Positions 1,499 through 58,263 of a DNA stretch of 64,000 bases are shown here, one piece after another. The notes below the pieces were generated by a model. It searched no databases and had not been told where the DNA came from. It saw only the letters and a program-made list of their open reading frames with translations. The stretch lies in NCBI GenBank assembly GCA_948146395.1, contig OX411543.1, forward strand, positions 61,927,676 to 61,991,675, read 5' to 3'. This DNA is from Fragum whitleyi. Its lineage: Eukaryota > Mollusca > Bivalvia > Cardiida > Cardiidae. The position numbers and the translations under genes were made by a program. Each line of letters opens with the position of its first letter. Position 1 is the first letter of the stretch.

Positions 1499-4400
1499 TC
1501 ATTCAAGACAAGAGTCGTCATTTGATCCTCCTCTGTTGCTACAACTGATACCATGACACTCTACACAGACCGAGGAACAATTCAAGCCATGTTTTTTACA
1601 AGTACATCTCCTAGAGTCACAGTTCTGTTTACATCCACATCGAATCATCTTCAGAAGTCTATCTGGCGCTGCGGGAAGTGTGCATTTGATAGGTACATAT
1701 TTGTTCAAAAGTTTTTTCCATCCCCATTCTAGTGGAGAAATTGATTTTCCAAGCCAGGTTTGAACTTGAAGGTATACACGGAAACTGTGATATTTTGCCG
1801 CGTTAGATGTTGGTGGGAGAGAGTTTACAAGGACAGCGCTTTTCTTCGTTTGCACTTTGTGTAGGAACTTACAGTAGCGCAAAAGGTCAAGACACTGTGT
1901 CCCGTTAAAAAGTTTTACTAAGACAGCTTCTCCTGCTTCTGCGACTGCTTGCTGAGTTGAATCTTGTAGAAAAACATTTGCGTAACTCCTAAGATCTGGA
2001 TCAGACATAACTTTTTTAAGTACTACACTTTTTCCGATACCAAAGATACGCGATGTGGTGTCACAACCCGAGAAAGCGTGTACAAACAAAATCAAGCTTC
2101 GGATATTATCTCCTAGAACGTTTATTGTGTTATGAATATTCCAAATCTTTCTAACTTTTGGTCCAGCTTTTACGTCTGATGTGGAGTATATCGTGTAGCT
2201 GTCATGATTAGCATAGAAGCAAAGCAATACTAGTAGGTCTGTATCTTCACCTATTACAATAACATTTGCCTCAGTAGCTTCTGAAACTGCAGTTTTCACA
2301 ATCAAAACATCGGCATCTTCTGAGGAATGTGATACTTTACAACCTGATTTAGAGAGACTTGCACCTAACATGCTGATAAAACTTTGCTTATTATCTGAAT
2401 TAGCGAGAAATAATTCTTTCTTTGATTTAAACGGTGTATTCTCATCGAAAAATGTATTTGTTCCCTTGAAACCTTTTGATCTGCGTTCATGTGCTTGGTC
2501 TTTGGTTGTTGCATTGTCACTATATCCATCAAAAACGACATGAGCATTTCTATAATTCTTTAACACAAGTTTGCAGTAACTTTCACAGATATCCCCAAAA
2601 GTTGAACCATATGCCCACGGTAATCTATGTAGTAACGATCCTCCATCTAACACGAAGGATATATTCTCTTGAGGTAGCACGTCAACGCCACAAGAACCTA
2701 AATCCCAAATTGCATTGGCTAGAATTGGCTTCTGAGCCTGCCTCATTAATCCGGACGAGTCAAACAGTGATGCTGGGTGACTACACAACTCATACTTAAA
2801 TACATCCAAGGGATTATCAAGTGAGATGTCCGATACAGTCAAGAGCCTTTGAAAAAGAAGCTGAGGATCAACTTGTATCTCATCCTCTCCAATTTTAATG
2901 GAGTTGTTTATTCCAAGTGTTACAGCTTTTTGAGACTTCTTGAAAGAATAAAAAGCGACTGTTTGATTTTCCATGCCTTTCAGAATGTCTTCACCAATTA
3001 CTCTCGCATTATCAACATTTACATTTCCCTCGGCAACACAACCTGTTTCGATATTTCGTAATTGTGGCTCTGGTGCAAATGGACTTCTGTCTCTTAAGAA
3101 ATCTACAAGTGTCCCCACATCTTTTGTATCTCGTTGAACTCTTGAAGTACGCGCTTCTTTATGTTGATCACTACTGTCATATGTTTGTCCGGAAAAAATC
3201 TGCATAGCGTTATTTACATCAGAGCAGGCTGGCATTGAAAGTAACCATTGTGCTCTCTGTGATTCGGACATTCCACGGCCTCTTGTCATTCCCCCTGTAC
3301 TCTTCAAACTACGCATCAATACTTGCTCTATCATTAAGTCTGTTGAAATCCCTGCCCAAAAACGGTCACTACGCCTAACAACATGTTTTCCATTAATGAA
3401 CAATTCATAGACCTCTGGGTGTGTTTCTTTGATTGAAGCCATTTCTTGTAAATAAATATAACCTGATTTCAGATACATGTGATGACCAGCAGCTGCAAAA
3501 TACGGTAGCATTTTGTTCATCGTCATCAGATGTAATTCCCAGTTTCCTGTTCTTTCAGCCTTTATAAATGATTTCAAAATACTGATCATATCCATATACT
3601 GTAACCAAAGCTTTGCAGTCCTGTAACATTTAAGTGATTCCCTTAAATTAATATATACATTGAATGCCTCTTGAAAAAACTGATCTTCGTCTACTGATTC
3701 TATTGCCAACTCACCACAGTGTACACCTTTGAATAATGCCTGTAAGCGTTCAACAAGTTCATGTTCATGTGTCATTTCCGAAATTTCATTACTCATAGAT
3801 GATTCGCTGTCATGGTTGCCCCTTGTAGCACCTGGAAACATTTTCTCTACCAATAAAGTATTCAAGGCATCATCAATAAGAAAATGTGCCCTTACTGCTC
3901 TTGACACTGCTTTCCCGCTTAGCATATGAGTGACAGTATTAGGTGCATACACAGTTTCAATCAACTCTTGCAAACCACTGTTGAGCATTAATTGTCCTAT
4001 ACAACCAAGAAAGCTCATTTCTGTATGAAATCCACCAAGTCTAAGAATAATAGATTTTAAGTCACTATCAGATTTTTCATTTTGTATGATTTGAACTGCT
4101 TTCCAGTAAAGTGGTTGGTCAAATGTAAGTATCGGTGTTACTGAAAGTCTTTTAGATTGTGTTACAACATAGCAAAGTGTTGAAAAAATACATGTCAAGT
4201 CACTAGGATTCATATCGATCATTGGTAAGAAAACAACAGATGACTGGCCTGAATGGCTACCAGTTTGAACAGTTTGCATGAATCCAGACCAACTCGGACA
4301 TTCTAACTTCAAAGGACGCGCAACATTTAAGAGAAACTCGATATTCTTTGAAGGATCATCAACTTGTTTCACCGTTTTCAAACTTTGAAATATCAGACTG

Positions 4401-6900
4401 TCAAAGCTATTATTGGTTTGACTGTAAAATTTAATGTTAATTTTGCATATTTCTGCGAGATCTTCGTGCGAGGCATGGACTCTAGGAACCGGCCTTGCAC
4501 ATTGAACACCGGGTGTTACAGTTGCTATGATCCCCATACCATGAAAAGTATTATGACCGTCGATTGTAGCGAGATTATGATCTACGTTGTCCGCTATGAA
4601 TTGAATTGCTCTGTTGCTTTCGCTACCATTCTCTATCTCGAAATTCCAGGTTGATGCAGCGGCAGCTTCAAACTTCTGCACTTCGGCATAAGACGAACAA
4701 AACCCCAGACTATGTAATGTATCTATCAAGAACTTTGAGCCAAAGTGATGGTGCATCTGAACTCCAAGGCCTATTTGTAAAGGCATTATTGCTCCTCGTG
4801 GACTTGACTGTTGAATAATACTCTGGGATAAAGCTAGCACTTTAGCATCGGATCGTTTGCAATTAATAATCTGTTGTAGGAACAATAATAAACTTGGTGG
4901 TACAAAACATTTGTTAGAGTCCACGGACATCATATCATTTGGGTCTGGGTAACAATATTTCGTAAGATCCAGTGTGCGTATATCTTCCATTATCAATCTT
5001 GCCGCAGTTTTTATAAGAGCGTTTTTCTCAGAAAGACCACTTTCTCTGTGCGACGATCTGTGAAATGAATGTAATATTGCATCTGCATTGGTCTTAAATG
5101 TTATGACATTGTGTTTCCCATCTAATTCCGATATAACTATCTCACAACCAAAGTGATCCAATAGTCTTTTTTTCATGTAGACGGAACTGTACGCATTATC
5201 TCCACAAAGCTCTTCCATTTTACTTACAAGGTCAAGGACTGTGATCTGCTTATCCATATTTTCTTCTAAGTAATTAATAATACTGGAAAATGCTTCGTCT
5301 GTGACACTATTAGATGGTCTACCTTTCTTAATATTGTTCATATTTTGTTGTTGTTGTTGTTGTAAAGGAATTCCGAGTCCAGTCCGGAAATTAGCACTAC
5401 AGGTTTGATGGTACCGTGCTTCAACAGCTGGTAAGTCTACTGCATATTCAAGTCTACCGAGCACACTTTCAGCCCATTTATCATTTCTTTTGGTACACAT
5501 GTCTTTAATTGTATTTTGAAAGTCTAGGGTTCTGACTGGATAAACATCATTACCTCTTTTACCTTTGAAATGTTTGGCATCGTTTCCACAAAATATGCAG
5601 TTCTTTTTAAAATCAAATTGTTTGTCTGTGGATCGTTTTACTCTTGTGGTAACATTTTCACTCTCTTCAATTTGAAAACGAGGTTGTTTGTTTGGGTGAC
5701 AATATTTTCTTCTACACTCGGCATGAACAAACTGGCCCACTCCAACACACAATGTTTGTCCTGAAAAGATAAATGGTTTGGTTTACTCTTTAAAGATATT
5801 CGATATATGAAAATAACCTTGTAAACATAAAGAATCGAAGAATAACAGCAATACTGTTCTTAATGTATATCATGGCGACATTAGGAACAGTATGGGAAAT
5901 GTTATCTTATACTAGATAGAGACTTAGAGGAAGCGACAAAGGTTGAGCAAGGCAGAAAAATTAGGGTCCGCAAAATAATACGGGTAAGTACAAACAGAGT
6001 AAAAATAGGTTTGTGTGACCGGAAATTGATACATTTTGAATGAATAAGAAAAGTCAATTTCTTAGGGTAAGAAGGGTATCTCATTCCTTTAAATTAATAA
6101 CGCCAAATAAAGAGTGAAGATTCAAAAGTTTTGCAGTCACAAGCCGATTAGTGAATCATTGGTATACCATGGGAATAAAATTTACGCTACATACTACTAT
6201 TTCATATATTACAGAATTGTAAAATCGTTAACTTCCTTAAATTGAATTAACATTTAATACATACGGATATTGTTTCCATTGCAAAAGAATTAAAATGGTT
6301 TGTATCCGCAATCCGATGTGAAAGAAAACCTACCTAGCCTTTTACTAGTCTCCACTAATCCACGGCAACCTTTTTCACCTAATTTCGCCAATTTTCCTTC
6401 ACTGTTTTTACATAGAACACAAATGGGCTGGTTGTCTGGCTCACTATCAAAGGAATGAAAAAAGAAATGTTACTAATTCCTAATTGTGACGAGAAAGTTC
6501 ATTGAGTGGTAAAAATTACGTTAAAAAAGAACAAAGATAGAAATAACCCGAGCTTGTATTTTCGTAAGTCCCAAATGGGCTTCCGTAGTTTAAAAAATCA
6601 ACGAAAACCCACCTATGAATTTCTCGATTCTTAATTTTTTTTTCCGTTTCCTGTATAAATATTTTCTTCCACAATACATATACAATTGAAAGATGTGCTA
6701 TTAAAGTGACTTTGTAGAATAAAAGTTTAATAAATGACCGACATGCCGGACCCGCGAAAACGGACTGCGCTTACGTATTTCGAAACAATTACGACAAGAA
6801 GGTTTCCATTTTCGGTAAAGCTGGTGTTAATTCTGTTTAAAAGTTAATAACTACAAAATATTACGAATGCCTACCTTTCTGTTGAGTCCGAAAAATCCAT
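1499..6900 (-). CDS. Transposase of Academ type: zinc clusters, DDE-like core, XPG/FEN1-like nuclease, CXC domain (three exons)
   Basis: Joined exons 6900-6875, 6443-6334 and 5760-1499 read through 1465 codons with no stop. All donors are GT and all acceptors AG, and the phases match. Domains in order: a zinc cluster across exons 2 and 3 (PICVLC...FVHAEC...YCH); a second cluster (CIFCGN...ARYHQTC) near residues 95-175; a central region with ADNVDHN (D436), TFDQPLYWKA (D593) and DLMIEQVLMR (E857), which I read as a possible RNase-H-fold DDE triad; and a FEN1/XPG-like nuclease with D1084 (LDGG), D1123 (VFDGY), E1193/D1194/D1196 (SSEDAD), D1218/D1220 (GEDTD) and D1279 (SGCDTTS). The last 49 residues are a nine-cysteine CXC domain that resembles tesmin/TSO1. 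The nuclease and CXC assignments come from visible motifs; the DDE residues are inference. An unbroken frame of this length suggests recent mobility or selection. Confidence 0.8.
6334..6900 (-). CDS. First two exons of the transposase gene
   Basis: Exon 1 is 26 nt, from ATG at 6900 to 6875 (MDFSDSTE plus two bases), and ends AG|GTAGGC. Exon 2 is 110 nt (6443-6334), entered through TTTGATAG|TGAG and left through CTAG|GTAGGT. It encodes a stretch with PICVLCKNS and LGEKGCRGLVETSKRLG, which looks like the first half of a zinc cluster. The other half (HAECRRKYC) opens exon 3 after acceptor CTTTTCAG|GAC at 5760. The start was chosen because it is the only ATG that opens this chain and it lies just inside the TIR. 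If exons 1 and 2 are missed, the first zinc cluster is cut in two. Confidence 0.8.
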
Positions 6901-33200: not shown

Positions 33201-36200
33201 GCTATAGGCCGGTTCCATATATGGTTATATGTGACTGATGGATGGATATCAACCAAAATTCATTTGATTGATCCTCTAGTAATCCTTTATTATTCTACAA
33301 AAAAGTATTGTGATCAGATGAGAAAAAAAAATTTTTTATGGGCAAAGGTCTTTTCTCTATATGTTATATAGTGGAAACACTGTAAAACACTCGTCTAATC
33401 ATATCAGAAGTTTCAGACCTGTGGATCGAATCGAAACAGCTCTACATAGTTCAATTAGCGTTAGATTTAACGGCAGTAATATCGAAATAGAATAAGCAAT
33501 ATCGTGAAGTTGACATTCACCACGATCATGATCATTCTAAATAGTTCCCTCTTTCATCAATAACTTTATTCGAAACTCTAACTCAGACCCTTCAAAAACG
33601 CTCCAAATCGTTCAAAACGATCTCTTTTTCATACAGATCACTCAAATCTTGCTACGCTTTTATTTGCTTGTGTGGGCGTTAAATAGCGTCTGATTGGTCC
33701 ATGGGGACGCAAAAGGGAAAGTATGTAGATTTTATGTAAGGGAGGTATAAGTTGCATTAATTTTATCCAATTTTACGATTTCATCAATATTGTATTACAT
33801 CCCTTTAAAACCATTCAAAATTATTTCCTCGCACACATTCGGGTTTTTTCTAAAATCATTCAAAATCATTCACCTAGTCAATTTCAAGAAGTTGTTAATT
33901 TTAACTACAACGAGAAATGAGCTAGTGCGTGGCATTTCCAAAAATTTCACACGTTCGCAACGTTAAGACTTAGATCAGCCTGCTCATCCGAATCTCACCT
34001 TCAATACTTACTCTATAGATCGGTTCGTACCTATTTTTTTTCATAATTCCAATATGTATTGAATGTATATAAAGGATGTTTAGGCTGCTGAATGTCTTTC
34101 CACTGCGCACATGGAAATTATTGGAAATGTCAGGCATATGCACAAACGATACTTGAGAGTTAAAAATTGCCGCCGTAACATCACATGTAATAAAAAATTC
34201 GGCTGTCCTTTTCTAAATCCAAATTCATGATTGGTGTATTTTCTTCGTAAGATATAGACCAAATATTTACGTTCTATAGAGTCTTTTGTTAATGATAGGG
34301 AATATCAAAATGGTTAAGTTAAATTGTAAAGATATACGATTAGGTGTACATTTTGAACCTTTATGTCAACAAATCTTTTGTACGTTTTGACTGCTACTTA
34401 AAAGTATACTGAACAACAAAAATAATGCATCGTCTGTTTTTGATAAGCCGTTCGCCATGATATTGAACATTTTGTATATGTCATTTCTTTATATAGGCTA
34501 GCCATTAAGTACACAATAATTGCCTTAATTCTATTCCTGATACAGTTAAGAACATCGTGAAATTGACGGTCATTCCGATCAAAACCATTCTAAATTGTTC
34601 ACTCATCGCTCCATTAATTCATGCCAACCACTCACTCAAATTGGCCTAAAACGCTCCGATATCATTAAAAACAGTTCGAAATCGCTCAAGATTATCGATA
34701 TTTAATCGATCAAATTATTCTAAGATTCTATTAGCTGGTGTGGATTTTAAAGTTGATAGGTCCTTAAAGACACACACACAGAAAATTACGTGAGTTTTAT
34801 AAAAGGGAGGTAATCAATATCGCTAATTTTGTTCATCCTGATCAAAAATACCGAAATTGGATTACTTCCCTTTTATTTCACTCAAAACTCGCTCCACACT
34901 CATTATTTTTTTGTTTCACAATTATTGCTAAGTCATCCACCTTGTCAATTTCATGATTTTGTTGACCGTATCAACCTCACACGAACAAAGACATTCAAAT
35001 GGAATATTATATTAGCTACCTTTAAAAAATAAATCCGTGTACCATTCTTTTTCTGTCTCTTCATCGACTATTAAGACTAATCAGACGCTAGAAAAAAAAA
35101 ATCAAAAATCGTAGACCGATTTGAACGATTTTTATTTTAAGTTTTTGACAATTTCGCAGCGTTTTTCTCATCAAAATGGAGCGCTGAGAGAGCAAGAATG
35201 TTTTTTATATCGAAGTAAATGTAAATTTCCTAATGTTACTACATTGTAGCTATATTTGTTTTTCTTTGTTTTCTGGATTTTCTTCTTCTACTGGGGACAT
35301 TGTGGCTTTATGGCTCGTAAAATATTTAAGTAAATGAACGCCATATTATTTATCTTACTTTTGCATTGGTTTGTAACATATTGAAGTAAATGAACGCCAT
35401 ATTCTTTATCTTACTTTTGCAAATGAAATTAATACCTATCCAAATCAAGCTAATCGCTCGCTCGTCACTGTACAAATTATAACAATTGAAGTGTACTTTA
35501 ATTGTTCAAAACGCTATGAGATCACTCAAAACACCAAATATATTCCCCAAAAAAACACAGTAGGTAAGTCATTTTAGAAGGAAGTAATCGAATATTGCCG
35601 AATTCGTTCAAATTGAGAGAAACTAACAATTTTGCGTTATTTCGATACAATTCGAAGCCCGTTTGTAACACTAATTTCTGGCCCTGTCCCACCTTAACGT
35701 TTTAGCCAGCGTGTGCCTAACGCGTTTGAAAAAACGACTAAGTCCGCAAAACGTCGGCATACGCTGACCTACATTTTCTTTTTGTCAATTCACGACGCGC
35801 TTGTAGCGAGTTTAAACGTGTGAGTAACGCGTGCGTAACGTGTCCAGAACGTGTTGATAACGTATGTCAGCGTATACCAACGTTCTTGAGCGTGTGTCCA
35901 ACGTTCTCGTAACGTCCTCGGAACGTGCTTAGCGTGTTTGTAACGCGCTGCTAGCGTGTTATAACGTGTTCGCAGCGTGTTTTGGATGTAAATATACATT
36001 CTGCAAGAAATGACCACTTCAAATTCATTCTTTTAATATATAAGCAGGCCATCGGCCACTACACATATTCAAATTCAAAGTATGTTGGTTCATGTAAAAG
36101 GAAAATAGGAAAAGACGAAAAGAAAAATATACTGGCACCTGTTACATATGAAAGCATGCATATAATAAAAACTTATAAGATTACAGGCTGATTATAGCTT

Positions 36201-39200
36201 TTGGTACTTTTTACTAGAAAAATATTGCGAAAGGGTAAGGAACTACTTGTCACAATGCACTCCTTTCTTCCTCCGTATGATCTTCCATGTAGGATGATTT
36301 TATTTCAAAATTTTTATTCCCGTCTACAACTTCTCTTAATCTTGAATAGTTAGTCTTATATTAAGGGGGAAAAGGTGTACCAAATATCAAACCTGTAGTA
36401 CATAAAATAGAATCAAATATTCTGAACAGAAGAGAATAGAGTAAAACACGTCTTGTATTATGTCCACTAAGTACAACGATGTACTTGTCTTTTTAGTATA
36501 TTCACAGTCGTATACCTGGTACAGTGCAGTAAAGAAGTGCCCAGTGTAGAAGCATGCAAGATGGCGGACGTAAACAACGATAAAAAGTACATGGTTCCAT
36601 ACCATGTGTCTACACAGTTTCCAAAATGTTTCTCCACTGGTTCAAAATCGCCTCAAAACCTTGTTTCTCCACTGTACCAATGGAAAAATAGGCCTGTTGC
36701 TGCACTGGACCGTTGTTAATTTACAAAAACTAAAAATGTCACTTTCCACAATGCTTTTTCAGGGCTGTCAAAATAGGGATAGTTTATGGGGGTTTGGGCT
36801 TACGATAGGTCGTTTGACATAGGTGATTTTATTTGTAATGAATCAAATTTTCTGGAATGAATCTTGCGATCACCGCTTCAATTTCGGTTTTTGCTATTTA
36901 CCCAACTTTATCGATTGAATCCAAGTTGTGTAGTAGGCATCACGAGAAATCAATGGGAAAATAAGAAAATCGGACATTTCATGTTGGTCACAATGCCTAT
37001 CATTAAACACCATCAGTTAAATTAACCTGTATTTTTGCGATTGAAAATGTACCTACTTTTTATCGTTGTTTACGTCCGCCATCTTGCATGCTTCTACACT
37101 GGGCACTTCTTTACTGCACTGTACCAAGTATACGACTGTGATATTGATAAAGATCAAATGAGACGAATAAATGTTTGTATAATGTGTAAAGTATTTCGCG
37201 AACGTATTGTTATTCTGACCAAAGAACAGGCGCACTTGTAAAGCTATAAACGCAATGTTTGATACACATTTAGGCTACATTTGCCACCTCGACAATCTAA
37301 GGAATTAAGAAAATCCGTAAAGGATTTATATGGAAGAAAAGACAAGCAGCTTATAACATAACATAACATAACATAAGTTTTATTCATATGACTTGAACGA
37401 AATCGTTCATCGTCAAATATAGAGAATGCTACTTATAATCGAGTTTTCAAGTCATTCTTAGGCTGGTCATGAGGAAACATGCAGATATGAACATATCAAA
37501 AGCATACACACGTACATGCACAAATTCATTCATTTACGACAATCTGATGGTAGAAATTCAAGACAAATACGCACCGGAACTTTTATAGGGCTGTCACACC
37601 TTAACGTTTTAGCCAGCGTGTGCGGAACGTGTTGGATTTTTTATAACACGCTGCGAACACGTCGGGTACGCTATGGACACGTTCCGCACACGCTATCGGC
37701 ACGCTGTAATACGTTGGCACACGTTGCGATACGCTGAGTATCTCATAAAATTTTGTGCATGCTTAAAATTTCTCAGCGTGTGCCGAACGTGTTGGAACAC
37801 GCTCCGCACACGTTCCGCACACGTTCCGAACACGCTCAGCACGCTAGAGACACGCTAGGAGCTTGTTCACTTACGCTACGGACACGCTAGAAACACGTTC
37901 GCCAAAAGTTTAACGTGCTTCGAGCGTGTCTCCAGCGTACTGGGAACGTGTGCATAGCGTGTCTTCAGCGTACTGAACGTGTGTCTAGCGCGTTGCCAGC
38001 GAGTTCACAGCGTGTTTCTGGCGTATGACAGCGTTTCAGTTTTCAATGAAAATATAAAAGTTCCGCTGCATGTTTGTCTTGAATTTCTACCATCAGCTTC
38101 TCGTAAATAAATGAATTTGTGCATGTACGTGTGTATGACGCCTTTGACATGTTCATATCTTCATGTTTCCTCATGACCAGTCTTAGAATGACTTGAAAAC
38201 TCGATTTTAAAGGCATTCTCTATATTTGACGATGAACGATTTCGTTCAAGTCATATAAATAAAACTTATGATATGTTATGTTATGTTATAAGCTGTTTGT
38301 CTTTTCTTCCATATAGTTCCTTTACGGATTTTTTAATTCCTTAGGTTGTCGAGGTGGAGAATGTAGCCTAAATGTGTATTTAACATTGCGTTTATAGCTT
38401 AACAAGTGCGTCTGCTCTTTGGTTAGAATAACAATATGTTCGCGAAAATACAAACATTCATTCGTCTCATTTGATCATTATCAATATACCAAAAAGACAA
38501 GTACATCGTTGTACCTAGTGGACATAATATAAGACGTGTTTTACTCTATTCTGCTCTGTTCAGAATATTTGATTCTATTATATGTACTACAAGTTTGATA
38601 TTTGGTACATCTTATCCTCCTTAATATAGGACTAGCTATTCAAGATTAAGAGAGGTTGTGGAAAGTCATCCTACATGGTAGAGCATATGGAGGAAGAAAG
38701 GAGAGCATTATGACAAGTAGTTCCTTACCCTTTCGCAATATTTTTCGAGTGAAAAGTACTAGAAGCTTTAATCAGCCTTTAATCTTATAAGTTTGTTATA
38801 TGCATGTTTTCATATGTAACAGGTGCCAGTGTATTTTTCTTTTCGTCTTTTCCTATTTTTCTTTTACATAAACAAACATACTTTGAATTTGAATATGTGT
38901 AGTGGCCGGTGGCCTGTTTATATATTAAAAGAATGAATTTAAAGTGGTAATTTCTTGCAGAATTTATATTTACATCCAAAACACGCTGCGAACACGTTAT
39001 AACACGCTAGAAGCGCGTTACAAGCACGCTAAGCACGTTCTGATGACGTTACGAGAACGTTGGACGCACGCTCAAGAACGTTGGTATACGCTGACATACG
39101 CTATCAACACGTTCTGGACACGTTTCTCACGCGTTACTTACACGTTCAAACTCGCTATGAACACGCTACAAGCGCGTCGTGAATTGACAAAAAGAAAATG

Positions 39201-42200
39201 TAGGTCAGCGTATGCCGACGTTTTGCGGACTTAGTCGTTTTCTCAAACGCGTTAGGCACACGTTGGCTAAAACGTTGAGGTGTGACAGGGCCATTATAAT
39301 TTCATTGAAAACTGAAACGCTGTAATACGCCAGAAACACGCTGTGAACTCGCTGGCAACGCGCTAGACACACGTTCAGTACGCTGAAGAAAATTCTATGA
39401 GATACTCAGCGTATCGCAACATGTGCCGACGTGTAACAGCGTGCCGATAGCGTGTGCGGAACGTGTCCATAGCGTACCCGACGTGTTCGCAGCGTGTTAT
39501 AAAAAATGCAACACGTTCCGCACACGCTGGATAAAACGTTAAGGTGTGACAGCCCCATTCAATTTGAAATAATTACAAAATGAATAATCTGGTCTATGTC
39601 ACAGTGTTCTAGATTAGCTATATAAAACAAATGTGATGATCATTGCCTAAATATATGGGCAATGCTTTATGAAGAGAACAAGTCTGTTTTCGTCATTTTT
39701 TTTCAACTACAGTTAACAACATCGTGAAATTGACAAGGTGAATGGTTCTGGATTAATGCATTTTGGTGATGCTAGAGCCTTCATATTTGGTATGGGGCAT
39801 TGTCTATCAAAATACGTTATTTTTTTTTACCTTACTAGATCTAATTTTGAATCATGAAAACGAAAGAAGTGACAATAATCTTCTACCTTTAAACAAAAAA
39901 GCATACATCCTTCAAATTTAGCCTGGAGAATTGCCACATTGCCTAGAACACAACACTGTACATTACTTTCAGATCAAAATAAAGCCTTTGTTGTTGGGAT
40001 TCCTTTCCAAAAACAGACGGCAAAAGAAAGAAATAGTTTCTTCTATTATATTTAGGCCTAATACTTTTCATTTTTTTTTTGTTTCAGCATTCATTCATTT
40101 CTTCTGTTAATATGATTGAAAATATACACCTTTGATCGAAATCAGCCCTATGCTGCATAGCTACATTTAAGATAATAGGTGATAAATGTTCTAAATCAAT
40201 CAACATATAATTTTCAGAATTTGTAGTATTGTTTCTTGCAAAGCAATTCACAGTACCTTTCACACTTATATTGGAAGTTATAGCTCTGTGTTGTTTGATC
40301 CTCTATATGACTATATGCAATAGAGAAATTGTAAAATAATTTAAAAAAACGGAATTCTCATACTCAGATGAGCGATATAAGACCATCATGGTCTTCTTAT
40401 TTTCTTAAAGGTTATTATATAAGTCTTATAAAATAACATTTTAGACAAAATTTGAATAAAGGTTTATGCTTCGGACGCTTTATGCAGATCTATACCATAT
40501 CTTAACCCATCGAAATGGGATCTATAGTTTTCCTACGTTGGACCAGATTTTTTTTAAAAAGACGTTTATAGCAGTTACTATATGGTCCATTTTCATGTGA
40601 CTTGTCAAATAATCTATATTTTTTTATCCTATTTTGCAGGATTCATCTCGTTTCACCTTGACAGAAGATTTGTGAGAGTGTTCGAACCTAAACAATTAAC
40701 TAAGATAACACCGCTGCCCCATTCAGATAATACAACATGTAAGTATTAACCCTTGCCATGCTGAAAAAAATAAAATGTCAAAACTGCATTAAAATGAAAG
40801 TGACGTGTGCATTGCCTATGATTATGACCCAAAATCTCAAAATGCTATAGGTTCAGGTTACTTACGAACACCAAGTCACCGACCTAGGCATAGCTGAAAT
40901 CAACCCTACGCGGGTGATTCAAACCCATGTGGAATACAATTACAGGAAAACGTGCATTAAACAACCACTTACGGGACCACCGAAAAAATGGTAGTAATTG
41001 AAAGAGAATAATCCTTAGTTCATATTTTGTTTACGAATTAGAAACATAATTTTGATCTAAATTGCGAATTTCTAAATAATTCCTATGTTGTTAAAACTCA
41101 TAAGAGTCTCATTGAGACGAATCTAACGCGTTTTAACAACAAAGGACTCATTTTACGATTTGTTTTAGACAAATTATATCTTCCTTTTAAGATGATTTAA
41201 TTTTAAGAAGAGTGTTTTAAAAACGGTCTTTTAATTGAAATGGTCGCTTAATAGACGTGGTTGCTCGAGCAAGGTAGCCTGTATACTTATTATTTGTTTA
41301 CAAGACCAGTGTGCAACCAGCTAAGTCCAGGAAGCCTAATGCAAGTGAAAGGCATTGTCATTTAAACCTTTAGGAAGCATATAAGGTAGGGAGTTATGGA
41401 AACACACTCCAACTTAAGAGTCGCCATAATGATGGTGTAAACCTACAGGCAGTAATCTGCTATTTAGACCACGCTTGAAACAAATTGGCCAATCAGAGAA
41501 CAGTATTTCAAAAGTATATATCACAGATACAACTCCGAGCGTTGTATTTACAGATTTACGATGGTAGCATGGCGTGCACGGGATCTCGACAGATTTTTTG
41601 TGCCGAGTCATTTCAAAAGGTTAACGAGCATTTCATATGATTTGTTTTTCAAAAAGCTTTCTATATTCTAAAAATGCAAAAGATCTGCGATAAGTAACGG
41701 GGAAAAATTCATAAGTAATTTTAGAATAATAACACTTTTTAACAGAGGGTTGTACTTGTTTAGGCGATTCGGATAAAAATACAGACAGTGTTAGCAAAGC
41801 GTGGTCTAAGTCGGATAGAAAATCTCGTGCCGCGGTATATGGGAAATAGTCACTCGCTGTCGCTCGTGTCTATTTCCCATATACCACGGCACTCGTTTTC
41901 TATCCTATACATAAACTTGCATAGTCGCTATAAATGCGATAAAGTTGACTCTAGGGCCAATATTACGAACAAGAAGTCCGCAAGTAAAGCATAGCTGAAC
42001 AAATCCTACATTGGCTAAGCTCAACCCCATGAGAAATAGAAATATACAATTGGTGGTTTACAAGACCAATGTGCTAGTCACCGTGCCAAAGAATCACCCC
42101 CTTGAATGTGTATTTCAAGTCTATTACAGTTAGTTATATCGTGGAATTGACATTCATCTCAATCCAAACCATTCTAAATCGCTCACTCAGCGCTCCATTC

Positions 42201-48200: not shown

Positions 48201-51200
48201 TTTAGGGTCTCAAGTTCCATTTCTCTTTTGAAGCGATGGATGGTTCCTGGCTGTCTAGTTCTAAAGTCGTTTTTGATGAATCGTATAGCTTTGTTAAGGA
48301 TTTGTTCAGCTTTTCTATGTCTTAATGTCCATATTCCATGATAGATCTTACTAGTGTTATGTATGCCGTTTTTCATCGTGATTCTGGCACTTTCTTTAGA
48401 TTTCTTTTAAGCAATCCAAAACTAGAGATGCCTTTGTTGGAGACTATTTTCATATGCTTGTTCCATTTTTGATTGTCAGAGATTTGTAGTCCGAGGTATG
48501 AATTGTCCTGTATTTCTATGTGATCGTTTAGTTTGTAGAATTTAGATGAATTCTCATTGATGTTGCACTCTTTGGCATTGAGTCTCACTCCCCATTCTTT
48601 ACCCCCCCCCCTTTTTTAAGTAATTTGAAGTTAACTATAATCTTCAATTTTCTTAAGGATTCGGTAAAGGAAGCATTCATCTGCAAAGAGCCGCACTGAT
48701 GATGTTACTTCATCTGGGAGGTCATTTATTTGACATAAAAACATCAGAGGGCATAAAACACTTCCATGAGGTACACTTAAGTCCACTGTTGTTTCTTCTG
48801 AGAACTCCCCATAACCAAATGTTCTTATGGTTCGTTTTATTAAGAAGTTTGAAAGCCATTTGTGAAGTTTCCATGTATATAATATTGGTTGAGTATGTGT
48901 AGTAATTTCATGGGGGACAGTGTCCAATGCTTTCGAAATACCTAGGATAGCAACATCGAGTTGGTTTTCCCCTTTGTCATTTTCAGATTAAAGGTCATTT
49001 ATTGTTGTTATTCGTTGGGTTTTACATGAATACCCTGATCTTAATCCATGGTTGAGATCTGTAAAAAAAAATTTGGTTTTGTTCAAAATATTTACGCAGA
49101 TGTCTACAGATGACATGTTCAAGTATCTTACAAGGAACTGATGTAAGGATACCAGTAACGATCTTTAACTGTCTCCAGATATTTATCTCCCTTCTAGAAA
49201 AGGCTTGAGGTGTTCGCATTCCTCCAGTCTTTTGGTAGCTCTCCTGTGTGAAGCGATTTTTGCATTATGATCTGTAGAGAAGGGGCTACTTCTTAAGCAC
49301 ATTCCTTTAGAATTTATTTGGTATTTGGTCTGATCCCCATGCCTTATTAGTATTTATTTTCATTAAGAGTTGATATAGACCATTTTCGATGATGATTAAT
49401 TCAATTGGCGTTTTATCCTCCAGTCTTGTTGTTGGAAGATCTTGAAATGTGGTAATGTAAATACAGATTTGAATTTTTTTAAGAGGATTTCAACTTTCCT
49501 ATACTGTCAGTCACTAGGTTTGTCCCTAAGTGAGAAATTCCTGGTGAATCTTGTTTTTTTTATTATTTGATGGATTTCCAAAAAGGTTAATGATTGTTAA
49601 TTTCTAGGCTTTCTATAAAAGTTCGATTGACATTTTCCCATTTAGCTCTACGGAGTTCCTTTATTTGCAATTTGTTTTGAAATGCTCTATAGACGTTCCA
49701 TCTGTTAGTCTTTCTTGCATATTTATAGAGTCGATGCTTTCTTTTTATTGTTTTTCCTTTCCTTGTGTTAAATTCGAGGTATGCTGTTTCTTGATTTAAT
49801 TTCTCTACTTCGAATGTTTCTCTCCATTAAGGTAAATAACGATTCTTTAACGTAGTTCCACATGTCTTCTGTACTGTTCCCTCTGTGGAGATTTTCTATT
49901 ACTTTGTAAGGTTGAGGAGGTCTGGTTTCATTTGGTTCCAGTCTGCGTTTTTGTATATCAAGCATTTCCTGGCACTTTTCCTATTGTGTTTCAGGTTTGT
50001 GTCCAAGTCAGTTTCTATCTTGTCATAATCAGATATTTCTGTGATGTTAACAGATAATTTGACCATGATGGGATTTGTAACAAAGGCTTCGTCAAAAGAT
50101 TGTTTTCTCTTGTAGGTGTTGTGTGTATCTTGGTGAAGATGTAACCTGTTGATATTTGGGCAGTTGAAATATCCTGTCAGTATTAAATCTTATGACAATT
50201 GTTTTGTCTATTATTTCAAAGGAATTTTTTACTTCACTTATGTGTTTCTGCTCTCTAGAATTCTCCTACCAGTCCGTCTTTGGTGTTGTTCATATTATTT
50301 TTACCCATTCTATGTCCCCTTCGGTAATTAATGAAATTTGTTCAAGTGAGTTTATTGAGTTTCTACCAGTATGAAAACAAATACTTCCTCCTTCAGTGCC
50401 TCTGTCGTTTCAATACACATCAAAGTTCTTCAGGAATATTTCACTTGATCTTACGGCATCATTTTTGGGTTGTTTTTTTTTTTTTTTTTTTTTTTTTTTT
50501 GCATTGTTTTACTCCTTTGAGCCACGACTCTGTTCCAACAACGATACCTGGTTTAAATGTGTTGTAAACTCTTCTTTTGATGGTTGCCTTGGACAGCACT
50601 TTCTCTTGGAAATAAGTTCAAGGTCTTCAGTCAAGGTCAAGGTCATTTTTCAAGGTCAAATTTGTGAAAAAGATGCAAATTTGTTAACATTTTGTGATAA
50701 CTTTTGAATGGTAATTGATAGGGCATTCATATTACCACATGATGATTACCTTAGACAAGAACTTTCTGTAGCAACCAAGTTCAAGGTCATCAGTCAAGGT
50801 CAAGGTCATATTTCAAGGTCAAATTTGTGAAAAAATAACATTTTGTGATAACTTTTGAATGGTAAGTGATAGGGCCCTCATATTCCACATGATGATTGCC
50901 TGGGACAAGCACTTTCTGATGGTACCAGCTTCAAGGTCATCAGTTAAGGTCAAGATCTTTTTTCTATGTCAAATTTGTGAAAAATTTAAAAACTCTGACA
51001 TTTTTGTGATATCTCTGGTTCTACTGAAGGCATTCACTTGAAACTTGGCTCATATATTCACCGTGCAACCTTTTCTATCAACAGGGATAACTTAAGGAAG
51101 CATTTTCTGATAATTATGCCCCTTTCACTTCATATTTTTTTCATCATACATTAGTGGTTTTTTTCATCCAGCACTTACAGCCGAACGTAGGCTACGGTAG

Positions 51201-57200: not shown

Positions 57201-58263
57201 AAAGGGAGACAATGAGCATATCAAAATGAATGAATAATTTCATAAAAGTTACCTCGCTTTATTCTATAAAACAACCATTGCGTTGGACACATTGGGCCAA
57301 CTTATTTATCGCCCGCTTTCGGGTCGGGTGTAGACTGGTCTCACTGTCGAATATCAGAATAGCCTATTCTAGGCTATTCTGATAGTCGATATGTAGACCA
57401 GTCTAGAGCTGGTATCCCGCTTTTTGAGAGATAGTCTGATATTGCGGGCAACAGTACCCGCCCAGGGTCAGAAATAAGTTGGCCCTAAATCTGAAAGGCT
57501 GTACAGAGATTGCACATTGTTCTTTGTGAAATACACTCACAGGGTTACTTTTCCATTACTGTTGTACATAAATTTGACCTACATTACAGGTCCAGGGTGG
57601 CAAGATTATAAAAATTGTGGGAGAGGGAAAATACCTAAACATAAGTGTTTGGAAAACCAAGAGAAGAAATGCCAAAACGCACAACACATCGTCACCAAGG
57701 TGCTTCGTCTAACAACCGAGTCTTTAGAAGAACTCTTACTTAAAAACGAAAATATCAAAGTAATCCATCTATTTCGAGATCCGCGTGCTGTAGTAAATAG
57801 CAGATTAGAATCAAAAGGCTATCCGACTAGGGACGCTACATCAAATGCACGGACGTTATGCCAGAAAATGGCGATCGACTACGAGGGGGGCTTACGATTA
57901 ATGCAAAAGTTTCCACTGAGATTTAAATTTGCTTTCTATGAAGATATTAAAACCGACGTGAAGGGAAAGATACAGACGTTGTACGATTTTGTTGGGATGA
58001 AGTTTGATTCGGCTGAGTTCGAACGGTTGAATCAAGTTAAAACCAATGATGCGGTAAACAAAAGTCCTCAAATGAAGCAATCACGATCTAGTGATAATAC
58101 AAAATGGTGGAGACACTATTTGTCTTTTACCAAATATAAAAGTATTGAAGATTTGTGCAATAACGTAGTAGACAAGTTTAATTTAACCAGGTTTAAAACA
58201 AGACAAGATCTTATTGATTTAAAGATTCCTTCATTGAATTTACCAAGGATTCTTCAGGTGTGA
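30197..58263 (+). CDS. Carbohydrate sulfotransferase (CHST family), five-exon model
   Basis: Joined exons 30197-30263, 40640-40738, 45489-45639, about 55712-55938 and 57590-58263 give 405 codons in consistent phase, the usual length for this family. Such enzymes move sulfate from PAPS to sugar hydroxyls in the Golgi lumen. A short basic cytoplasmic tail (MKVRRN) and a hydrophobic segment at about residues 7-25 make a type II anchor. A stem follows to residue 83. The 5'-phosphosulfate loop is YMNSGSRFTAALF (91-103), close to the family RSGSSF pattern. The 3'-phosphate site is FRDPRAVVNSR (about 243-253). Later blocks (FAFYEDIKTD, TKWWRHYLSF) also fit. The exact subfamily and sugar are not readable. 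Exon 4 is the weak part: its acceptor is uncertain and lies by an M1 copy. Confidence 0.8.
30893..31282 (+). mobile_element. M1 MITE, copy f (5' truncated)
   Basis: Starts inside the left arm at GATGGGAGAGTTTTGAGTG. It has a very clean palindrome, TAATCCAATATCGCTAATTTTG...CAAAATTAGCGATATTGATTACC, then CCAATCAGACGCTTA, and ends CATGATGTTACTGACT. Confidence 0.75.
31290..32270. other. Intron 1 stretch with one single-arm GCAAAGCGGG repeat
   Basis: The only repeat recognised is the single arm at about 32120-32205 (GCAAAGCGGGACATCATTTG, then GCTTTTGCATTCCTGAACG). The rest is unassigned intron. Confidence 0.4.
32349..32783 (-). mobile_element. M1 MITE, copy g
   Basis: CAGTTAGTAACATCGTGATA at the low end and TTTCACGATGTTGTTAACT at the high end, with the internal palindrome near 32620-32690. 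It directly follows a remnant of the TGTGACCC hairpin family (32290-32340). Confidence 0.8.
32962..33235 (+). mobile_element. 5' part of a Helentron-like satellite-bearing element
   Basis: The hairpin GGGGCTACCA TTGCA TGGTAGCCCC is followed by GGGCGTCCGTCCGTACGTGCGTCCG and one unit with ACTACAGGGTGGATTTTCATC. The tail is missing. Confidence 0.6.
33494..33903 (-). mobile_element. M1 MITE, copy h (diverged)
   Basis: AATATCGTGAAGTTGACATTC opens and AGTCAATTTCAAGAAGTTGTTAA closes. It contains the longer GCTTGTGTGGGCGTTAAATAG variant of the core (also in copies a, i and p), defining a subfamily. Confidence 0.65.
34543..34968 (-). mobile_element. M1 MITE, copy i, with TA duplication
   Basis: CAGTTAAGAACATCGTGAAA to TTTCATGATTTTGTTGACCG, flanked by TA at 34541-42 and 34969-70. 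The internal palindrome is CGCTAATTTTGTTCATCCTGATC. Confidence 0.8.
35068..35244 (+). mobile_element. M1 MITE remnant, copy j
   Basis: ACTAATCAGACGCTAG, then GGAGCGCTGAGAG, then ATTTCCTAATGTTACTACATTG: right half only, degenerate. A second remnant of the left half may lie at 35505-35640. Confidence 0.5.
35693..35985. repeat. Array of degenerate 10-11 bp repeats, arm A (left)
   Basis: A succession of AACGTGT / AGCGTGT / AACGCGT heptamers is separated by three or four variable bases, about one motif per 10-11 bp. The core is conserved while spacers vary. The inverse array is at 38980-39285. Confidence 0.85.
36503..37140. mobile_element. TIR element of 638 bp with 5-bp duplication and CACAGTC ends
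   Basis: TIRs of about 88 bp differ at a single site. Both begin CACAGTCGTATAC and go on through GGTACAGTGCAGTAAAG and GCAAGATGGCGGACG. The flanks are ATATT at 36498-36502 and 37141-37145. Without it, arm A reads on continuously and matches the inverted arm. The 5-bp duplication and CAC start are features of Transib elements, whose ends resemble the RAG heptamer, but the ATATT target is not GC-rich, so the assignment is tentative. Confidence 0.85.
37352..37376 (+). repeat. Short (AACAT)n microsatellite in arm A
   Basis: TAACA repeated four to five times; the inverted arm has TTATG repeats at 38274-38292, with a different copy number. Confidence 0.8.
37588..38055. repeat. Segment B of the compound foldback: 10-11 bp repeat array
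   Basis: Starts GGGCTGTCACACCTTAACG and proceeds through ACACGCT / ACACGTT motifs (GTTCCGCACACGTTCCGAAC, CACGCTAGAGACACGCTAGG) that switch orientation near 37905, where GCGTGT forms begin. It is therefore itself palindromic in motif orientation. It ends GTTTCAGTTTTCAATGAAAA, as does the inner end of 39293-39554. Confidence 0.8.
38980..39292. repeat. Array of degenerate 10-11 bp repeats, inverted arm A
   Basis: AACACGCTGCG, AACACGTTAT, AACACGCTAG and similar units follow in register. It is the inverse of 35680-35985 with few differences. Confidence 0.85.
39710..39765 (+). mobile_element. M1 MITE fragment, copy l (left TIR only)
   Basis: CAGTTAACAACATCGTGAAA, then TTGACAAGGTGAATGGTTCTG, stops abruptly where a satellite-bearing element seems to start. 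Confidence 0.65.
39766..40399 (+). mobile_element. Helentron-like element fragment with terminal hairpin
   Basis: Ends GAGCGATATAAGACCATCATGGTCTTCTT at 40397, the same hairpin tail as at 12074. It contains TCATATTTGGTATGGGGCATTG, like the 160-bp units at 14731-15940. The head is absent. Confidence 0.5.
40640..40738 (+). CDS. Sulfotransferase exon 2: stem region
   Basis: The acceptor ATTTTGCAG|GATTC and donor ACAT|GTAAGT are both good. It encodes GFISFHLDRRFVRVFEP and then a polar stretch to HSDNTT. Length is 99 nt, so phase is preserved. It sits 10.4 kb after exon 1 because intron 1 has gathered many repeats. Confidence 0.75.
40739..42120. other. Intron 2 of the sulfotransferase gene, first part
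   Basis: A hairpin of about 93 bp at 41813-41905 is the only clear structure (GGATAGAAAA / TTTTCTATCC arms with GGTATATGGGAAATAG inside). The rest is unassigned. Confidence 0.5.
41813..41905. mobile_element. Hairpin element
   Basis: GGATAGAAAA....GCC.CGGTATATGGGAAATAG pairs with CTATTTCCCATATACCACGG....TTTTCTATCC around a CACTCGCTGTCGCTCGTG centre. No duplication of flanks was found. Confidence 0.65.
42880..43597 (+). mobile_element. Satellite-bearing element with units of about 150 bp
   Basis: Units at about 42885, 43185 and 43345 share CAAGGGCAGATAATTCAAGA, TTTGAATT and GTCTTATGCACAACTAGACA. They are followed by GGACGGACAGACAG repeats (43510-43555) and GACCCTTCGGGCGTATAAAAA, a form I know from bivalve repeats. 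Confidence 0.65.
43072..43149 (+). repeat. Exact tandem duplication of 39 bp
   Basis: GTTTCCTTTTATTCCCATCC and the rest of the 39-bp unit occur twice without a difference (43072-43110, 43111-43149), so the event is recent. Confidence 0.9.
43600..43898 (+). mobile_element. Helentron-like element tail
   Basis: Ends GGAGCGATACAGGGCCTCTTGG and then GCCTCTTGTT, a short hairpin (AGGGCC..GGGCCT) plus CTTGTT, like the tail at 12096. The head was not identified. Confidence 0.5.
45170..45365. mobile_element. GAGCCTGTGCGTGACATTTCC MITE, diverged copy
   Basis: ATGAGGCTGTGACATTTCCAAC, then TACATGCGTGTAAGGTG, and GACCGTGCGAATGCACGG correspond block by block with the complete copy at 55967-56203. The right TIR is decayed. 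It ends 120 bp before sulfotransferase exon 3. Confidence 0.6.
45489..45639 (+). CDS. Sulfotransferase exon 3: 5'-PAPS-binding loop
   Basis: Acceptor TTTCAAG|CAG|ATCC is a tandem NAGNAG site, so use of either AG keeps the frame (SDP or YP). The exon encodes a lysine-rich stem and then HVLINSYMNSGSRFTAALF, with S94-G95-S96 in the place of the family SGSS loop. It ends GGATTCAG|GTAATT, carrying two bases. Confidence 0.85.
45700..47118. other. Intron 3, unassigned part
   Basis: 45715-45770 has a TCCGTCCGTCTGTCTG run, as in satellite-bearing element heads. The remainder, including a 74-codon open frame from 45868, shows nothing recognisable. Confidence 0.35.
47119..47962 (+). mobile_element. M1-related copy n, interrupted
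   Basis: Left end CAGTCAATAAGTTCGTGCAATT with GAATGAAATTGAAAG (47119-47225). Right end with GGAGCGTTTTGGAG and TCAATTTAACAATGTTACTAAACT (47770-47962). The middle, from about 47230, is unrelated sequence. Confidence 0.5.
50473..50500 (+). repeat. Poly-T run of about 27
   Basis: A long T run inside the endonuclease part of the LINE remnant; it interrupts the frame. Confidence 0.85.
50555..51213 (+). mobile_element. Satellite-bearing element nested in the LINE
   Basis: Three units of about 150-160 bp contain TTCAAGGTCATCAGTCAAGG, TTTCAAGGTCAAATTTGTGA and ATTTTGTGATAACTTTTGAA (50620, 50785, 50930). The tail ends GCCGAACGTAGGCTACGGTAGG and then CGATGCTCTTGTT at 51213. LINE-like sequence resumes on either side. 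Confidence 0.65.
52011..53000. other. Intron 3, unassigned part
   Basis: No coding pattern, repeat partner or RNA gene was recognised. Confidence 0.35.
53004..53091. mobile_element. 88-bp hairpin element, copy 1, 9-bp duplication
   Basis: CATCCTCGGATACCCCGG opens, and the inverse closes at 53091. The arms are 40 bp with two mismatches and the loop is GTCGAT. Flanks ACATATTTG (52995-53003) and ATATATTTG (53092-53100) are a 9-bp duplication with one change. Nine-base duplications are typical of Mutator-like elements. Confidence 0.85.
53740..53772 (+). repeat. A-rich run
   Basis: An A-rich stretch of about 30 bases with occasional C; no associated retroelement was recognised next to it. Confidence 0.6.
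54370..54540 (+). repeat. Dispersed repeat shared with 27690-27870
   Basis: ATGATGTCATTTTCACA, AGCCCATTTGCGTAATTATT and CTAGTGTAATAAAATCCGTG follow the order seen on the minus strand of the other copy. Confidence 0.6.
54638..54963 (-). mobile_element. M1 MITE, copy o
   Basis: CACATTGTAAAATTGACACTC to CATTCACGATGCTGTTATCTG, shorter than other copies because part of the right arm is gone. The palindrome is degenerate (GCCAATTTTGTCTTTTTGGAC). Confidence 0.65.
55146..55226. mobile_element. Hairpin element of about 80 bp
   Basis: GGGTCCCAAATATAAACGACT / GGGAGTATATTCGGGGACCC outer arms and GACCCAATAGACCAAT / ATTGGTCTTGTGGGTC inner arms meet at CAAA. The arms have small indels. Confidence 0.6.
55337..55745 (-). 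mobile_element. M1 MITE, copy p, abutting sulfotransferase exon 4
   Basis: Left end GGTTTCAACATTGTGAAATT, right end TTCACGATGTTGTTAACT at 55745. The long-core subfamily block is present (GCTGATGTTGATTTTTATGCG). The coding text of exon 4 begins within about 5-16 bases of this end. Confidence 0.75.
55712..55938 (+). CDS. Sulfotransferase exon 4 (5' boundary uncertain, may be M1-derived)
   Basis: The reading TRDIFGPMKYNYYSLS...AIEMMTDILDKIYHCQ...LIVQGVQDDYGG matches the FYVFEPLKY...ilkdIy.C.f block that follows the PAPS loop in this family. The donor GGAG|GTATAT at 55938 joins exon 5 perfectly (GG|PGWQDY). The start is open. The M1 copy ends at 55745, 16 bases before the FGPMKY codons. The only phase-compatible AG I find is at 55711, inside M1. 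If it is used, about 11 residues come from the MITE. The family glutamate of FEP reads as glycine here and two residues seem missing. Confidence 0.6.
55967..56203. mobile_element. GAGCCTGTGCGTGAC MITE, complete copy
   Basis: The TIRs GAGCCTGTGCGTGACATTTCC and its inverse are almost perfect over about 30 bp and lie between ATATAT runs, so the size of the duplication (up to 6 bp) is ambiguous. The inner GACTGTGCAGATGCACAG hairpin also matches 45170-45365. It lies 28 bp into intron 4. Confidence 0.8.
57289..57487. mobile_element. Nested palindrome with TAGACTGGTC core
   Basis: Outer arms GGGCCAACTTATTT / AAATAAGTTGGCCC surround the inner hairpin 57331-57395 (TAGACTGGTCTCACTGTCGA....AGACCAGTCTA). 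The inner part is related to the hairpin at 26728. It ends about 100 bp before exon 5. Confidence 0.65.
57590..58263 (+). CDS. Sulfotransferase exon 5: 3'-PAPS-binding site and C-terminus
   Basis: Acceptor ACATTACAG|GTCCAGG is followed by 223 codons and TGA at 58261. IVTKVLRL precedes the beta-strand HLFRDPRAVVNSRLES, with R244, D245, R247 and S252-R253 in canonical places. FAFYEDIKTD and WWRHYL follow. The upstream open sequence from 57517 is intronic and should not be taken as a start. A polyadenylation signal AATAAA lies at 58711-58716. Confidence 0.9.

Follow-up and report, generated by a model that had tools for sequence, protein, structure and literature searches.

A self-nested, gene-less DNA transposon of probable PIF/Harbinger type in Fragum whitleyi bears subterminal ACACGYT arrays with about one core per helical turn

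The window considered here is a 64,000-nucleotide stretch of the bivalve Fragum whitleyi (assembly GCA_948146395.1, contig OX411543.1, positions 61,927,676 to 61,991,675 of the forward strand; coordinates below are counted from its first letter). Inverted-repeat analysis and self-comparison reveal that 35679-39557 of this window holds a gene-less DNA transposon of 1.71 kb twice over, one copy lying within the other. Both arms of the transposon are arrays of a 7-bp core, ACACGYT. With fair confidence, we regard this locus as a self-nested, non-autonomous transposon of the PIF/Harbinger type, the arms of which are helix-phased arrays kept by selection for a transposition protein supplied in trans, probably the Myb-like protein of a Harbinger element.

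The outer, older copy (copy 1; 35679..39557) is reversed, lying on the minus strand, and is broken both by the second copy and by a small element. It has the ends TGGCCCTGTCCCACC and, on the reverse strand, TGGGGCTGTCACACC, and is flanked by the target-site duplication (TSD) TTC at 35676..35678 and 39558..39560. Its right arm, a phased ACACGYT array, occupies 35679..35990 of the minus strand, and its left arm resumes past the insertion at 39294..39557 on the same strand, where it matches positions 3-169 and 377-472 of the family consensus at 96.4% and 97.9%, respectively, and is without about 207 bp (consensus positions about 170-376). The inner, younger copy (copy 2; 37586..39293, plus strand) is complete, with a length of 1708 bp and a 98.1% match to the consensus, and is flanked by TTA at 37583..37585 and 39294-39296. 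It comprises a left arm (37586..38060) with a phased array whose blocks lie in both orientations, an interior with no periodic signal (38061..38970), and a right arm (38971..39293) whose phased array reads mostly ACACGYT, all on the plus strand. The small element, located at 36502..37141 inside the interior of copy 1, is a distinct 640-bp element with 88-bp inverted ends (99%) and a terminus of approximately TCACAGTCGTATAC; this stretch is extra to the consensus, being present in copy 1 and not in copy 2.

The longest inverted pair at the locus, 35679-36169 with 38792-39293, joins the right ends of two different, oppositely oriented copies, and the interior palindrome exists because copy 2 is nested in the oppositely oriented copy 1. 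In a single copy, inverted repetition between the two ends is limited to 46 bp (87-89%) and one weak 108-bp stretch (73%), so that the long repetitive arms, inverted within one copy, of a Foldback element are not found here. A palindrome belonging to the element itself was accordingly rejected. An earlier interpretation made from the letters of the window (the sequence-only reading) had placed the structure at 35680..39554, which is good to a few bases, and had taken the large foldback to be the element's own build, which was not borne out, as most of the palindrome is a by-product of nesting. Similar arrangements occur elsewhere: at four or more loci, among them L031, L040, L060, and the window, the element is inserted in another member of its family or in a diverged relative, perhaps through preference or through chance at high copy number. 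A further locus, L044, holds a tandem pair of the element in which the two copies share one TTA. Contig C1 also has tandem pairs, near 16.15 Mb and near 64.05 Mb, where one right end follows another at a distance of 1.68 kb.

The transposon belongs to a large family in the genome searched (1.22 Gb, 38 contigs). When 173 bp from the left end served as the initial query, 840 candidates were returned, and all 40 of those scored were matches. Genome-wide, 449 exact matches to 28 bp of one end and 458 to 27 bp of the other were found, with reversed-pattern controls giving 0. Contigs C1 and C2 have 83 exact right ends, of which 53 could be paired with an exact left end; the distance between the ends is 1.57-1.80 kb in 47 of these 53 pairs. 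The 1710-bp family consensus was built from 20 full copies, which deviate from it by 1.5-4.0%; because these were picked as resembling the initial 173 bp of the left end, it is biased toward young copies. The longest open stretch anywhere in the consensus amounts to 101 amino acids. Each copy has termini of about 20 bp, TAGGGCTGTCACACC... and TGGCCCTGTCACACC.... Identical TTA or TAA is present on both flanks in 16 of 19 copies, the other three (L036, L042, and L050) having differing flanks; these 19 are the members of a sample of 20 stretches that reach the right end (L046 does not), and for L044 the outer ends of its tandem pair were compared. Within the window, copy 2 has TTA and copy 1 has TTC, which departs from TWA. 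Since the copies are dispersed and have fixed ends and TSDs, they do not form the head-to-tail array without defined ends that is typical of a satellite, and the outcome that would have overturned the sequence-only reading, a satellite without terminal inverted repeats (TIRs), is excluded.

The 3-bp TWA duplication is that of the PIF/Harbinger superfamily, and from this TSD together with the terminus we infer a non-autonomous cut-and-paste element of that type, mobilized by PIF/Harbinger machinery. Like the known non-autonomous members, namely Tourist-like miniature inverted-repeat transposable elements (MITEs) such as mPing, it has a 3-bp TWA TSD, short inverted termini, many copies, and no genes. 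The mPing terminus GGCCAGTCACAATGG, a string that occurs in PMC3480845, resembles GGCCCTGTCACACC of the element described here. Unlike these elements, however, it is longer (1.71 kb), has T as its first base, carries two long phased arrays, and has no Harbinger transposase tied to it.

The reality of the arrays, proposed by the sequence-only reading, is confirmed by counts of the core. ACACGYT occurs 23 times on the plus strand and 21 times on the minus strand within 35680-39554, compared with 5 and 6 times in the remaining ~60 kb of the window. The left arm of the consensus (480 bp) has 21 exact cores, far above the mean of 0.67 and maximum of 3 seen in 500 shuffles, and the 10 in the right arm (330 bp) compare with a shuffle mean of 0.47 and a maximum of 3. 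Altogether, a copy has about 50 sites, 31 of them exact, in blocks of either orientation. Alignment of 51 cores (CG held, at most one mismatch) gives 1.0-2.0 bits at each of the seven positions, partly through the choice of sites, and 0.02-0.53 bits in the flanks, of which those at +10 to +12 stem from the core that follows.

The spacing of the cores is equally regular. Autocorrelation peaks with z>3 lie at 9, 11, 20, 22, 31, 33, 42, and 53 bp in the left arm and at 11, 31, 43, and 52 bp in the right arm, whereas the interior has none. In a scan of 5-25 bp, the best period is 10.64-10.66 bp for the left arm and 10.62-10.66 bp for the right arm. When cores are placed uniformly, none of 2000 trials matches the observed coherence in three of four tests, and in the fourth, that of the ten exact right-arm cores, a fraction of 0.0005 of trials does so.

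The spacers between the cores behave differently. Adjacent same-strand units have a spacer likeness of 0.310 (n=31) compared with 0.285 for non-adjacent units (n=618; permutation P = 0.30), whereas cores, which were chosen for motif fit, are 83% alike regardless of distance. Proximity adds no likeness between spacers, a pattern that recent slippage does not account for. In diverged copies, cores change less than spacers in all nine comparisons made, with one-sided P values of 0.0037-0.22 and four of nine below 0.05; a core in either sequence sufficed for a site to be scored as core, and the nine comparisons share sequences and are not independent. For instance, 8/210 core and 25/230 spacer changes separate the left arms of the standard element (std) and L062, the figures for std and L063 being 13/205 and 27/223, and those for the right arms of L065 and L066, two loci of a sister family described below, being 4/133 and 13/156. 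Cores defined on the consensus alone are again slower in nine of nine arm comparisons, two of them below 0.05 (two-sided). Interior divergence is 0.094 for L062 and 0.117 for L063, which is near that of spacers (0.075-0.122) and unlike that of cores (0.030-0.061); between L065 and L066, with L065 as reference, the interior, spacers, and cores differ by 0.072, 0.058, and 0.018, respectively. In the recent copies (n=20), variation is lower in the right arm than in the interior (93/6600 vs. 451/18000, P = 8e-8). The combination of conserved core, ~10.6-bp period, and drifting spacers noted in the sequence-only reading is thus upheld, neighboring spacers being unrelated and cores slower than spacers.

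A second family has the same design with a different core. A terminus with a different next base gives 84 and 81 matches in the genome (controls, 0 and 1), and among the 100 matches listed, 84 by our own count read TWA-TGGGGCTGTCACACCA. This sister family was read at two loci, a small sample, L065 and L066, which have the same plan as the family in the window (family 1) with shorter parts, and arrays of ATACGYT. Its TSD is TTA, with two candidate right ends both fitting at L065 and the assignment at L066 made by eye. At L065, 50 of 55 sites have T at position 2 of the core, compared with C in 35 of 54 sites in family 1, and L066 contains 25 exact ATACGYT and 0 ACACGYT. The periods of the four L065 arrays are 10.64, 10.60, 10.62, and 10.32 bp. 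The two families share their termini and otherwise align over one 85-bp stretch (~71%), plus 37 bp in L065. An outer pair in L065 matches at 75% over 255 bp, and judging from this pair, the arms within one copy may once have been inverted repeats of each other. Positions 2396-2470 of L065 also include a stretch that appears tRNA-like by eye only. We tentatively put forward, as a possibility short of a preferred conclusion, that two paralogous families in which the same letter has changed in most arrayed sites while one site per turn was kept preserve a fossil trace of a shift in the specificity of a DNA-binding protein, a shift that its target arrays followed in concert.

No partner element was found, and the following steps are accordingly inferred. 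A protein supplied in trans would bind the arm arrays cooperatively, and the most likely candidate would be the Myb-like partner protein of a Harbinger element. An array lying on roughly one side of the DNA could load many copies of this protein side by side, and the loaded ends would then be brought together for the transposase; the altered core of the sister family would follow an altered specificity of its protein. In Harbinger3_DR, a separate Myb-like protein binds a 9-bp subterminal motif (PMC9710019), and GT1/Myb-like domains contact about 6-8 bases (PMC9921582). Within each terminus, a 7-bp core recurring about every turn suits the side-by-side loading of many copies of such a protein.

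Several results weigh against the interpretation we favor. The sequence-only reading envisaged a binding surface on one face of the helix, which in the strict sense is weakly supported. A phase lock sought in family 1 alone was not found, as its phase coherence equals that of a random walk of the observed steps (fractions 0.63 and 0.56); with reordered spacings, the fraction is 0.27 for the left arm and 0.015 for the right. Across six pooled arrays from both families, coherence is 0.547 vs. 0.406 for the random walk with all strands (P = 0.062) and 0.618 vs. 0.436 on the same strand (P = 0.013). The pooled coherence does not fall smoothly with distance: over 21-24 units it exceeds that of the random walk (P = 0.055 and 0.022), whereas over 9-12 units it shows no such excess (P = 0.23 and 0.40), which leaves a long-range phase lock across arrays suggestive and marginal. 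Five of the nine older core-spacer comparisons are singly non-significant, and that for L060b depends on the alignment, with P = 0.019 by MAFFT and P = 0.35 (19/186 vs. 28/208) by local alignment. In the 20 recent copies, cores and spacers vary alike (67/5480 vs. 109/7220, P = 0.19; the first 175 bp, the basis on which the copies were picked, are excluded), as expected if most variation post-dates insertion. Deletions of 11 bases recur at four places in the arms of these copies, and unit exchange via the cores therefore also shapes the array. The first base of the terminus is T, while PIF/Harbinger TIRs, according to PMC4482050, usually begin with A or G and are mostly <60 bp; the inverted termini here are of 46 bp and 87-89% identity.

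A further point on the same side is that an autonomous partner with the same ends, which the sequence-only reading had suggested seeking, was not found among three long end pairs on C1 and C2, the loci with a Harbinger-type transposase domain (PF13359), or L060. PF13359 has 150 scored matches in the genome; all six of the loci inspected are without the family's ends or arrays, and for the 25 matches on C1 and C2 the nearest lies 5.8 kb from any of 113 listed termini. The longest of the 53 end pairs, L057 and L058 (9.2 and 5.8 kb), are members of the family interrupted by insertions with long retrotransposon-like frames, named as such from the frames, and the 2.9-kb pair L059 has no frame of 100 amino acids. 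On C1 and C2 this check was confined to these three pairs, leaving aside the pair of 2.1 kb and the 30 of 83 right ends that are unpaired. Finally, the two arrays at L060, which are separated by 7 kb, result from local duplication of a diverged arm, and the locus has no match to the six transposases at E 0.01.

The recurrent 11-bp deletions, the units of 11, 21, and 31 bp reported by Tandem Repeats Finder (TRF), and the random-walk phase of family 1 would also suit a different origin, in which the arms are an old 10-11-bp micro-satellite within a transposon, spread by slippage and unequal exchange, so that the period is merely that of the repeat unit and no binding is involved. We consider this unlikely, as neighboring spacers are no closer than distant ones, cores evolve more slowly than spacers in nine of nine comparisons, blocks switch orientation, and the sister family has the same period with a different core. 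Somewhat less probable again is binding of the arrays by a protein of the host, be it a chromatin, methyl-CpG, or transcription factor, that aids persistence or expression of the element rather than transposition. The core does contain a CpG, and the arms are CpG-rich, with observed/expected ratios of 1.63 and 1.82 vs. 0.97 in the window; however, a change of core between families is easier to reconcile with a family-specific protein than with one host factor, and the arrays lie just inside the termini, as do the sites of transposition proteins in known cases.

Long, internally repetitive ends, comparable to those of Tm1 or Galileo, would in addition recall a genuine Foldback or Mutator-type element whose TIRs are the long arms. 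Tm1, a Mutator/Foldback element of root-knot nematodes, likewise has ends composed of many short repeats of 13-15 bp, but these are true tandem repeats in another superfamily with duplications of 8-10 bp (PMC3169594). The 3-bp TTA/TAA TSD of the present element, the restriction of inverted repetition within a single copy to 46 bp and one weak stretch, and the origin of the large palindrome in nesting make such an assignment very improbable.

Another likeness within the superfamily is MtPH-A6-4 of Medicago truncatula, which has TWA-type duplications and oppositely oriented subterminal repeats at one end or both, with a short motif triplicated per 60-bp unit (PMC2213677). These units are longer, conventional 60-bp tandems, whereas the present element has 7-bp cores at 10.6 bp with unrelated spacers. 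Galileo, of the unrelated P superfamily, has multiple transposase binding sites in long repetitive TIRs, which have been proposed to raise specificity (PMC3688188), and repeated binding sites have been called convergent between superfamilies (PMC3688188; PMC3573991). The tandem repeat of one Galileo subfamily is ~210 bp (PMC3573991), and one-per-helical-turn spacing was not found described in the available text of these sources. Subterminal repeats and multiple binding sites are therefore known already from MtPH-A6-4, Galileo, and Tm1. A literature search for an element of the present build recognized none as matching; relative to the sources covered, in the text available, what is new is that cores recur once in each helical turn while the spacers drift, and that a sister family keeps this rhythm with a changed core.

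Elsewhere in the window, an open frame of 1427 amino acids on the minus strand (1499-5782), by far the longest present, has no Pfam match at E 0.001. A 261-amino acid open frame on the plus strand (57478-58263) contains a sulfotransferase domain (PF00685, E 5e-14), and a fragment on the minus strand (48631-48987) weakly matches the reverse-transcriptase domain PF00078, at an E of 2e-4 that falls below the curated cut-off.

Overall, selection on both the spacing and the sequence of repeated subterminal sites is rarely visible in transposon superfamilies. With about 50 sites per copy at one per turn, spacers available as a built-in control, and a sister family whose core differs, this family makes the requirement for phase and the co-evolution of protein and array directly testable.

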